From: Gammaproteobacteria bacterium
GTDB lineage: Bacteria; Pseudomonadota; Gammaproteobacteria; Burkholderiales; Sulfuricellaceae
Reading direction: 5' to 3'
Assembly (NCBI GenBank): GCA_018823025.1
Contig: JAHJJI010000024.1
Coordinates: 1-64,000, forward strand
Length of the DNA: 64,000 nt
Shown: in pieces, positions 24,060 through 27,811 of the stretch
Layout of the letters: every line of letters begins with the position of its first letter
Position numbering within the stretch: the stretch's first letter is position 1
The notes under the pieces: model-generated
The model's database searches: none
What the model was told of the DNA's origin: nothing
Seen by the model: only the letters and a program-made list of their open reading frames with translations
Translations under genes and position numbers: made by a program

Positions 24060-24956
24060 CTATTTTCCGCCCGCCCGCACCCACATGACCGCAAGCCGCC
24101 CCATGCCCCAGCGGTGCAAGCCCAGCCCAAGCAGGATAAACGCGGCGCCGAACCAGACTTGCGGCAGCACCGCTTCGTTGTTCAGAAGGTGGCCCAGCAA
24201 CAGCGCCATGACCGGCGTGATGAGCGTGATCAGTGCCACGTGCCCGGCTTCCATGTGCTTGATCATGTAGAAATACAGCATGAAGCCCAGCACCGAGCCG
24301 AACACCCCGAGGTACACGGTGGCAATCAGCGCCTGCTGCGGCAGCGCTGCGGGCAAGCTCCCGTCCGTCCACCACCATGCCGCAAAAAACAGCGGCAGCC
24401 CTACTGCCAGCGTACCCAGCGTCATCGCCAGCGGATGGCTGTCGTCCCCGATGCGCTTGATCCACACCAGGCCGAGCGACTGCGTCGCCACCGCGCACAG
24501 CAGTGCCAGGATGCCCAGCAGAGCGCCCGGCCCCAGTTCCAGTCCGCCCTGGAACACCAGCCCCAGTCCGACCATCCCGAGCGCCATGCCGAGTATCTTG
24601 TTGGCGGTCAGCTCCTCCTCCACCAGCCACAACACCGCTCCCAGGCTGGTAATCAGCGGCGACAGCCCGAACAGCACCGAGATCAGCCCGGAAGAAACGT
24701 ATTGCGCCGACCAGTAGGTGAGCGACATGGCGCCGAACAGGCTCAGCCCGCTGGCCAGATAGGCCTGCCGCGCCTTGCGGTGCAGCGGGACGCGAATACG
24801 CAAGGCCGCAAGCAGGAGCACGCACAGCAGCGTGCCGATCGCCATGCGTGAAAATACCGCAAAGCTGAATCCCACCCCCAGCGCGCTCCACTTGATGGCG
24901 AGCGGCGTGGTGGACCAGATCAGGATCACCGATACGAACGCGAGCGGCAGCGACAT
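24060..24956 (-). CDS. EamA/DMT family transporter
   Basis: ~10 TM segments, LTYWSAQYVSSGLISVLFGLSPLITSLGAVLWL; start MSLPLAFVSV at 24956 with GGAG upstream. Confidence 0.88.
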   Translation of the reverse strand: MSLPLAFVSVILIWSTTPLAIKWSALGVGFSFAVFSRMAIGTLLCVLLLAALRIRVPLHRKARQAYLASGLSLFGAMSLTYWSAQYVSSGLISVLFGLSPLITSLGAVLWLVEEELTANKILGMALGMVGLGLVFQGGLELGPGALLGILALLCAVATQSLGLVWIKRIGDDSHPLAMTLGTLAVGLPLFFAAWWWTDGSLPAALPQQALIATVYLGVFGSVLGFMLYFYMIKHMEAGHVALITLITPVMALLLGHLLNNEAVLPQVWFGAAFILLGLGLHRWGMGRLAVMWVRAGGK

Positions 24957-24986
24957 TCCCTTCTCCTCAAAGACGACAAAAAACAA

Positions 24987-25015
24987 AAAGGCCACGGAGA
25001 TCGTCCGTGGCCTTT
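24987..25015 (-). terminator. Rho-independent terminator in the 5' leader of the EamA gene
   Basis: - strand AAAGGCCACGGACGATCTCCGTGGCCTTTTTGTTTTTT, 5' of the 24956 start codon. Confidence 0.75.
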
Positions 25016-25202: not shown

Positions 25203-25272
25203 GATTAACTTTGAACGTAAAGTTGAGGGGCGCCGCGCTTCTGCGGCGTCCCGCTCGAACGCAAGGTTAGAT
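25203..25272 (-). other. attC-like recombination site
   Basis: - strand ATCTAAC (RYYYAAC) CTTGCGTTCGAGCGGGACGCCGC AGAA GCGCGGCGCCCCTCAACTTTACGTTCAAA GTTAATC (6/7 of GTTRRRY), imperfect inverted arms. Confidence 0.6.
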
Positions 25273-25281
25273 TGCATTGGT

Positions 25282-25842
25282 TTATTTACCCGTATGGCCG
25301 CCAATCATGAACGCACTTTTGATCTTGTCGAAGTCCGGGCGAGCAGCCTCGTTTTCAACCTCGATCCTATAGCGACCCTTTGGCAATTCCACTAGATCAA
25401 TGATTTGATGCTTCGTGCTTTTGAGATCATGGCCTGCTCTACAAATTGATGCATATGTGCGGTTAACGATAATCTGTTTATCGGCAATTTTAGAAATACG
25501 TATGTGCAGGCGTATGGGCTTTCCTAGAGATTTTTGTTGTGATTCATTGAAATCTTCGATTTTCTTTGCCTTTGGCCCATAGCACTCAAAGTCATATTGT
25601 GCGCCAACGAGAGTATCTGCGAGGCGATCTTCTAGCGAAGGGAACGTGTGATTTAGGTACAAAAAATAACGAATGGGCACTGGGTATTCTGGAGCTTCGA
25701 ATTCAGCAATAAGTATCTGTCCTGGTTTAGAAAAATCAACTGGTACGGGCGGCAGAAGCGCGGGGATGCTGCAATAGCCTGAGAGCCAAAGAACGGCGCC
25801 AAGAATTGGCTTTGAGCATGCTGAATAAAGGATCGGGCTCAT
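25282..25842 (-). CDS. DUF5625-like lipoprotein carried in a gene-cassette-like unit
   Basis: MSPILYSACSKPILGAVLWLSGYC lipobox; VPVDFSKPGQILIAEFEAPEY...; stop is 9 nt before the attC-like site; internal start 25842 preferred over 26016. Confidence 0.65.
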   Translation of the reverse strand: MSPILYSACSKPILGAVLWLSGYCSIPALLPPVPVDFSKPGQILIAEFEAPEYPVPIRYFLYLNHTFPSLEDRLADTLVGAQYDFECYGPKAKKIEDFNESQQKSLGKPIRLHIRISKIADKQIIVNRTYASICRAGHDLKSTKHQIIDLVELPKGRYRIEVENEAARPDFDKIKSAFMIGGHTGK

Positions 25843-26021
25843 TTGCAATCTAACAGTTAATATACGGACGTTTGCGCCCGGACATTTTTTAATAATACGG
25901 ACACCCATAATGCCATCGTAATTGGTTGATGTGCAATGAATTTGAAATTTTGCGACCGTATAATAATCAATATCACTGACAACACCAGCACAGAGTATTT
26001 TATAAAGCATTCGCACATGTT

Positions 26022-26605
26022 GGGTTTTGTGCGCTACGCGCGCATGTTTAGATGCCGGGGGCTGCCCGGCAGCAGGTTACTTTATTTTGCTTGTCCAAAA
26101 TACAAGTAACCAAACAAAAAGACACCCTGCCGCGCCGGCCCTGCGGGCTACCTTCGGTTTGATGGTCAAATTGGGCGGCTGCGCAACTCGCCCTAGCGGG
26201 GTGCACACCCCGCACCCCACTGCGGAGCTCGAACAGTGCTCGCCTTCATCCCAGTTTGACCGTCAAACCGAAGCGGCGCAGAAGGGGATTTAGGTTTTGT
26301 GGGCGGAGCCCGTGTTTTGGGTGCTCTCCCCGCAGGGGAGAGCGGGGTTGGTTTTGTTTTGCTTTTTTGGTCCCCTTTGGCCGCCGCCGAGTAGCGCAGC
26401 CAAGCTGGGGGATTTCTGCGAGGACTGTTTGAGCGCGTAGCGCGAGTTCCGCAGCAGCCCGGCTTGGCGAGCAACGCAGGGAACCCCGAAGGGGCGGTGG
26501 AGAGGGGCGGCTTTCTTTGGTTCCTTTCTTTGGCCGTTTAAAGAAAGGGACTAGCCCGCCGGGCTACCCCCGGCAACCAAACACCCGCGTAGCGCACAAA
26601 CCCCC
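26022..26605. repeat. ~584-bp non-coding element with ~48-bp terminal inverted repeats and nested hairpins
   Basis: Left end GGGTTTTGTGCGCTACGCGCGCATGTTTAGATGCCGGGGGCTGCCCGGC (26022..26070) vs RC of right end GGGGTTTGTGCGCTACGCGGGTGTTTGGTTGCCGGGGGTAGCCCGGC (26558..26605). Confidence 0.8.
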
Positions 26606-26707
26606 ATCCAGGAAACAGCAAACCTGCCCCGCTTCATCCATCCTCGTTCTGGTCTATGCTGTAGAAATTATTAAGGGTTTCCACATCGTTTTCGGCTGGA
26701 GGATCAA

Positions 26708-27811
26708 ATGAATAAGCATGCCTTGCACATTGCCCTGGTTACCGCATTTGCCAGTTATCTTCCGTCTGCGATTGCAGCGCCAGTCAATTACGAAATGAAC
26801 CTGCGCACCTATTCTGGACTAGGTGCGGGAGGCGCCACCGGCATGATGTCGGCGATGTTCGGCGGCAAGGGGAATATTTCCAGGCAGATGGATCTGCGGC
26901 TGGCCAATCCTGCGGATATTCCTGGCGGCTATAGTGCCGAGCACATCGTGCCAGAGGGCATGCGTATCGGCCCATCGCTGCCGCTGAAGGGCGAGCGGCG
27001 CGGCACGGGGAGTGGCGGCAGCTCGGAGTCCGAGCAGCCCGAAGGCAAGGTGTTGATCTATTGGGGATGCAGCGAGACCGTGCCGAAAGGGCAGCCGGAA
27101 GTGATCGACCTGAAGGCCATGAGTAGCCGCCTGTCGCCGGAAGTGGCTGCGATGGCCCAGCAGAGCCGCAAGCGTAAAGGCGGCGGCGATGGCGGTGAAA
27201 CTCTGCCGCCGCGCACGCTGTGGTGGCCGTATGGCGACAACGCTTTCAGCGGAATTCCCACCGAAGCCTCTGTGGTCGGCGAGCATGTGGTGAAGGCCAG
27301 CTTCATGCAGCAGGAGATTCGCTATGCCCTGGACAAGGACATGGATTTTCTCGAAGCGCTCAACTTCAAGTCCGGCAGTTCCGATCTCAAGGCGGCGATT
27401 CCCCTGAAATGGGATCAGCTTTCCCGTGCCAAAGGCTATAACCTGAATGCCGTTGGTGCAGTCGGCGATAATGAAGTCATCATCTGGATGGCGGCCAGGA
27501 ACAAGAATCCGATGCTGCCGGGCAGCCAGAGTAGCTGCACCATTCCGGCCGGCATTTTCCAGAAGACATCAGGCGCCATGGCAATGGCGGAGGCAGTCGG
27601 GCCGACCAGGGGATTTGCCTATCCGCCGCTCAAGCCCGGCGAGAAGAAACCGCTGATCTGGACCGCGAAAGTGCGGGTGAACGGGTTCGATAATCTGATG
27701 CTCGGGATGGGGGACGTCGCCAGGGATGCGGCCACCGATGCGGCTGCGGATTCAGTGGTGCCGGGCGGAGGCAGCGTGCTCAAGTCGCTCAAGGGCCTGT
27801 TCGGAAACTGA
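26708..27811 (+). CDS. hypothetical secreted protein
   Basis: signal peptide MNKHALHIALVTAFASYLPSAIAA; GGAGG upstream of ATG; 367 aa. Confidence 0.8.
   Translation: MNKHALHIALVTAFASYLPSAIAAPVNYEMNLRTYSGLGAGGATGMMSAMFGGKGNISRQMDLRLANPADIPGGYSAEHIVPEGMRIGPSLPLKGERRGTGSGGSSESEQPEGKVLIYWGCSETVPKGQPEVIDLKAMSSRLSPEVAAMAQQSRKRKGGGDGGETLPPRTLWWPYGDNAFSGIPTEASVVGEHVVKASFMQQEIRYALDKDMDFLEALNFKSGSSDLKAAIPLKWDQLSRAKGYNLNAVGAVGDNEVIIWMAARNKNPMLPGSQSSCTIPAGIFQKTSGAMAMAEAVGPTRGFAYPPLKPGEKKPLIWTAKVRVNGFDNLMLGMGDVARDAATDAAADSVVPGGGSVLKSLKGLFGN

Follow-up and report, generated by a model that had tools for sequence, protein, structure and literature searches.

The locus at 25.2-26.0 kb of the window, by which we mean the whole 64,000-nucleotide stretch of DNA analysed here, is very probably an integron platform lacking its integrase, in which an orphan attI has captured one cassette; this reading covers both its anatomy and capture at attI. 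At the level of sequence, the attC site, the homology of the attI element, the order and orientation of the parts, the absence of intI from the locus and the replacement of the cassette between related species are established. In the mechanism we propose, the orphan attI (25851 to about 25954, - strand) would be of the type belonging to Thiobacillus/Methylotenera-type integron integrases, and the cassette (25216-25853) would have been taken up by IntI-mediated attC x attI recombination at G^TTAGAT. Cassette exchange would depend on an integrase supplied from elsewhere in the cell, and the unit that spread may have been the orphan attI without intI.

Results

The attC site of the cassette occupies 25210..25272 on the - strand, where it was placed by an attC covariance model (R2) and by alignment with intI-linked copies. 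R2 was trained on 28 sites from arrays of the same genome and its relatives, most of them beside integrase genes and a few from arrays without an intact integrase gene (C121, G005); the window attC and its close copies were left out of the training. The site scored 45.7 bits (E = 3.8e-9, the E-values of R2 and of the R3 model described below being rough), the runner-up match in the 64-kb window reached 13.3 bits, and the window holds a single attC. This significant score bears out the attC-like site that the first-pass annotation had proposed on the - strand. The structure imposed on R2 is backed by covariation, with 84.8% of the cells paired as against 27.6-40.3% when one arm is slid, and with 80 cells of the R2 alignment changed on both sides versus 31.9 +- 4.8 in shuffles. 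An Rfam search at the site gave no match. The exact RYYYAAC..GTTRRRY pattern taken by itself proved useless as an attC test, with 42 matches per strand vs 117 in the reversed control.

The window attC matches a site beside intI in G007:C414 and another in G016:C6 at about 95% identity over 57-58 bp. When the copies of this type are aligned, the likeness stops at ...ACTTTACGTT (ACGTT), and because the conserved part ends there, the R' box is GTTCAAA at 25216..25210; the R'' box is ATCTAAC at 25272..25266. The copy alignment replaces the R' box read earlier, GTTAATC at 25209..25203, with a shift of 7 bases. The cassette, first given as a 645-bp unit (25209..25853), is corrected to 25216..25853 on the - strand, 638 bp between two G^TT cleavage points, as placed by the attC family alignment and by the flank matches of G005.

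The cassette, one short gene followed by attC, has a G^TT core at either end, both in direct order. Read on the - strand, the attI element and its core are followed by five bases, the ATG, the gene, attC, the flank ...CAGAAACATG, a spacer and an EamA-type gene; the ATG lies 11 nt past the crossover point. The cassette gene (25282..25842, - strand) encodes 186 amino acids with a profile match to DUF5625 (PF18539, E = 9e-10) and a hydrophobic N-terminus, from which the protein is predicted to be secreted or anchored. It had been described as a DUF5625-like lipoprotein; the domain stands, while the lipoprotein part is weak, LSGYC being no canonical lipobox by reading. No relative of the protein was found in a scan of the genome contigs, and none of the solved structures resembled it. 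PF18539 was present in 1 of the 41 related genomes searched, the window genome itself, and absent from the 40 relatives. The G+C content of the cassette, 46.6%, is below that of the flanks (62.0% and 60.1%), as had been noted before.

An ordinary chromosomal gene with a transcription terminator could also leave a palindrome just after the stop codon. The modest z-score of the fold would suit such a terminator: the bottom strand of the site folds stably (-16.2 kcal/mol), but taken alone this stability is modest, with z = -2.3 and 5 of 200 shuffles equally good. The attC model E-value, the near-identical copies in cassette arrays, the other genes found at the locus in relatives and the restriction of PF18539 to the window genome make the probability of a terminator negligible. 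The attC site and the cassette are real, far beyond chance. The integron cassette reading of the first pass was right, given the attC model and the same-genus relatives with other cassettes at the same spot.

Other genomes contain further copies of the stretch to the right of the cassette, and every copy immediately precedes a different gene. R3, a sequence-only model of this element, and DNA searches revealed at least four element types in the family (A, that of the window, and B, C and D); they are conserved over roughly 110-270 bp and their likeness ends at the core. In the window, type A runs from 25851 to about 25954 (- strand), as located by R3 and by its match to an intI-linked attI. 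Its core, GTTAGAT, spans 25848..25854 (- strand) with the G^TT crossover at 25854/25853, and this is where the conservation of the element copies stops. The same heptamer had been taken for the other core of the cassette; it is indeed a core, but that of an attI and not merely a second cassette boundary. The locus is therefore neither the bare relic cassette nor the plain CALIN that was first supposed, intI being the only part missing. An outer part (25955..26021, - strand) is common to G005 and partly to G010 by sequence comparison, and tblastn with two IntI types found no trace of intI in it.

The window attI has a dyad, CGGGCG-CAAA-CGTCCG, ahead of ATTAACTG|TTAGAT (G at 25854). Across the copies, the short dyad just before the core varies in sequence and keeps its symmetry (CGGAC/GTCCG, CAGAC/GTCTG, GAGAC/GTCTC; by reading). 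R3 gave 97.6 bits at the window attI, a score that is not independent since the window sequence belongs to the R3 training set. Independent support comes from a pattern search, from the association with attC and from intI-linked copies. The window element aligns with the intI-linked attI of L138 over 91 bp ungapped at 69% identity (57.1 bits vs a shuffle maximum of 20.6), and the alignment ends at the core. By homology and context, the element before the gene is an attI site. Because it stands directly before the gene, and attC usually lies behind the copies of the element, we read the window as an integron without its integrase. No match to a sigma70-like promoter was found before the cassette gene on its strand; from homology alone we infer that the attI may supply the promoter. 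The idea that the element is a promoter-bearing cassette without an ORF was dropped once intI-linked copies turned up. Its assignment to a dispersed repeat was dropped as well, since types B, C and D also end at the core, independent of the repeat.

A pattern covering the core region only (SGTCYSTNNAWTAACTGTTARRY) was searched in 85,488 genomes. It occurred at 49 places, nearly all in Betaproteobacteria, including Thiobacillus, Sideroxydans, Methylotenera, Dechloromonas, Chromobacterium and others; Sideroxydans and Ferrigenium represent the Gallionellaceae among the bacteria with the element, and the bacterium of the window is accordingly likely to belong to that family. The places in Marinobacter, Salegentibacter and Moritella (3 of 49) are probably due to chance and were kept in the counts. 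R2 found an attC on the same strand within 3 kb downstream at 33 of the 49 places and upstream at 1, with 59 attC in 112 kb downstream vs 1 in 105 kb upstream. Several of the other 16 places end early in the available DNA.

Five of the places have an integron integrase: L138 (Thiobacillus denitrificans MAG UBA2410, with four attC behind attI), L146 (Methylotenera oryzisoli), L170 (Thiobacillus) and, with frameshifts, L134 and L175. The IntI of L138 scored 388.7 bits against the TIGR02249 integron integrase. Their intI genes are divergent, starting about 190-210 bp from the core and running away from it, and the proteins are about half identical to the integrase on contig C99 of the window genome; the intI-attI-cassette layout at the five places is the textbook one. 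By our own count, about 33 of the places have 1.3 kb or more of DNA upstream; intI is present at 5 of these, and attI without intI is the rule among them. The plasmids searched held no copy of the Thiobacillus-type attI.

No IntI match was found near 25.2-26.0 kb, and intI is absent from the window. The first-pass annotation was right about this, yet the same genome (G000) has one intact intI, on C99 (TIGR02249, 500.4 bits), and about 27 further R2 matches. C99 (L005 5000-13000) is a complete chromosomal integron with about ten attC, and its attI is of another type than that of the window. Orphan attI head attC arrays without intI on C11 (the window contig), C69, C71, C107, C115 and C141. One more attC lies on C107 near an intI fragment, and the arrays of C120 and C121 are at contig ends. 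On C69 (L079 208-3206), two type C orphan attI form a tandem array in the order attI - two attC - attI - attC. R3 had no match in the intI-linked loci of the family examined. The genomes compared are mostly drafts.

A role of the element as attI for the genome's own integrase on C99 was rejected, as no similarity was seen and the attI of such integrases is of the other type. The same difference in type speaks against the C99 integrase acting on the window attI, integrases being reported to prefer cognate attI (Collis 2002, as listed among the references of PMC3108266). This integrase could instead have inserted the cassette at a non-classical genomic attG, the adjoining element being a chance attG-like site. 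Insertion at attG is an established route (PMC12901181, PMC12444791) and the genome has an intact IntI. We nevertheless regard it as quite improbable here, because attG sites diverge strongly from classical att sites (PMC12901181) whereas the element is conserved over at least 100 bp, is homologous to an intI-linked attI, and loses its conservation at the core.

Comparison with relatives, which the first-pass annotation had proposed, revealed same-genus genomes with other cassettes at the spot and another genus with the left flank and no integron. The conserved left flank contains the EamA-type transporter gene (by protein reading; 24060..24995, - strand). On its right the locus is bounded in G000, G005 and G011 by a dispersed repeat next to attI (26022..26750), of which there are many copies in genome and genus. 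Type A orphan attI often lie at the end of this repeat (also in G010, G003, G006 and G005). In G005, from the same genus, the flanks are 90-94% identical, the left one matching as far as 25218 and the right one from 25851 onwards. The cassette that they enclose is unrelated to that of the window: its gene encodes 396 aa, and its own attC is weak (25.5 bits). In G011 (G011:C67, L031) two attC (57.6 and 32.2 bits), an attI of a different type and an N-terminal remnant of intI lie between the same left flank and the same repeat, with remnant, attI and attC at L031 2160-2430 and 2814-3356. Two attI types at one spot in sister species do not follow from the proposed mechanism in its simple form and speak against it. 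In G014 and G020, from another genus of the family, the left flank is followed by a thioredoxin-like gene (by reading).

Turnover was seen a second time, at a type A orphan attI of G006:C77 and G011:C70, whose flanks are orthologous on either side (88-90%). The genes behind it differ (172 and 85 aa), and one allele of the pair has a decayed attC-like end (by reading). Thus, two orthologous loci differ in cassette, both alleles being without intI, which favours an integrase acting in trans. The differences may nevertheless go back to a shared ancestor that had intI, with losses afterwards, or to recombination in the flanks. Different cassettes would also result if an ancestral intI had been lost a single time, ahead of the species split, and alleles were then swapped through homologous recombination in the flanks. 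We put exchange in trans, rather than in cis before the loss of intI, at roughly an even chance. G005 (two contigs, nearly complete) has attC arrays and only fragments of intI (L076 = G005:C1 2626000-2638000, L085 = G005:C1 308000-313000), one of which matches the C99 protein over 39 aa at 95% identity.

Defined ends at unrelated loci were seen in the Thiobacillus-type copies, while the window type has a less clear outer end. L170 and L175 have a stretch from -1284 to +5 around the core in common and nothing beyond. The copies without intI (L131, L172, L152, L143, L154, L165 and L151) keep about 70-110 bp from beyond the intI 3' end, and since this sequence adjoins the attI region, intI was removed by an internal deletion. 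One genome contains both L154 and L165, which have only -291..+7 in common, at 95%, so the deleted form occurs at unrelated loci. The unit looks like a non-autonomous derivative. Neither a terminal inverted repeat nor an enzyme for the outer end was recognised. An outer edge, ..CCGTCTCTTGTTCGGCCGAAGCGGCC.., is common to L170, L175, L131, L172, L152, L143, L154 and L165 and lies about 310 or 1290 bp before the core.

These copies bear on the view that the window locus is a decayed complete integron, in which intI stood beside attI, capture took place in cis, intI was lost in place and nothing happens in trans today. Integron decay is the standard view of CALIN (PMC9024848), frameshifted intI do lie beside the same attI type (L134, L175), and relatives contain intI fragments, one of them at the window locus in G011. 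However, searches beside the window orphan attI and about 30 copies in the family revealed no trace of intI, the two loci with different cassettes are without intI in both alleles, and one genome contains two intI-deleted copies (L154, L165) that have their ends in common although the loci are unrelated. We give decay in place somewhat less than an even chance.

Discussion

The integrase-less platform of the window may be one of many. In a wider model, which we hold only tentatively and with the balance leaning against it, the integron of a betaproteobacterial genome would be distributed. Such a genome would have at most one integrase gene, together with numerous scattered attI landing sites lacking an integrase; these sites would spread as small non-autonomous units, and cassettes would reach them in trans. 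The usual view of integrase-less attC arrays is that they are debris. Should a conserved orphan attI stand at the head of many of them, such arrays would be ordered sites of capture, and a single integrase could act on numerous loci. Orphan attI would also explain where the arrays without intI lie in this group. Current software misses attI outside class 1 integrons, and the element supplies sequences of this kind; its use in trans is directly testable.

Integrons and CALIN are known, and the dispersed orphan attI that head them appear to be undescribed in the literature searched. We found no paper on orphan, solo or multiple attI sites, which is weak evidence of novelty as the search was literal and incomplete. 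CALIN are described as degraded integrons (PMC9024848), their mobilisation in trans is accepted as possible, and those of Xanthomonas lie at a small number of fixed loci (PMC12444791). The window resembles a CALIN in having attC and a cassette with no intI nearby. However, CALIN are defined by what is missing, whereas a recognisable attI heads the window unit. Moreover, the window has one attC and the default of IntegronFinder 2.0 needs at least two; attI outside class 1 are poorly described and go undetected by it (PMC9024848).

As in attG insertion, the cassette lies in the chromosome away from intI, but attG are divergent genomic sites (PMC12901181) and the landing site of the window is a conserved attI, not a degenerate site. 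The delta-attI-type cassettes of mobile integrons (PMC12901181) also have attI sequence away from intI; theirs is a truncated attI after the gene in place of attC, whereas the attI of the window stands before the gene. The Thiobacillus-type copies are similar to MITE-type deletion derivatives, having lost the coding part internally, kept both ends and reached several unrelated loci, and differ from them in being without identified terminal inverted repeats or transposase. Compared with a sedentary chromosomal integron, the window has no intI at the locus and one cassette, and several orphan attI occur in one genome. It shares with such integrons the attI core, a cassette with attC, the expected gene direction and an attI homologous to the intI-linked one in Thiobacillus.
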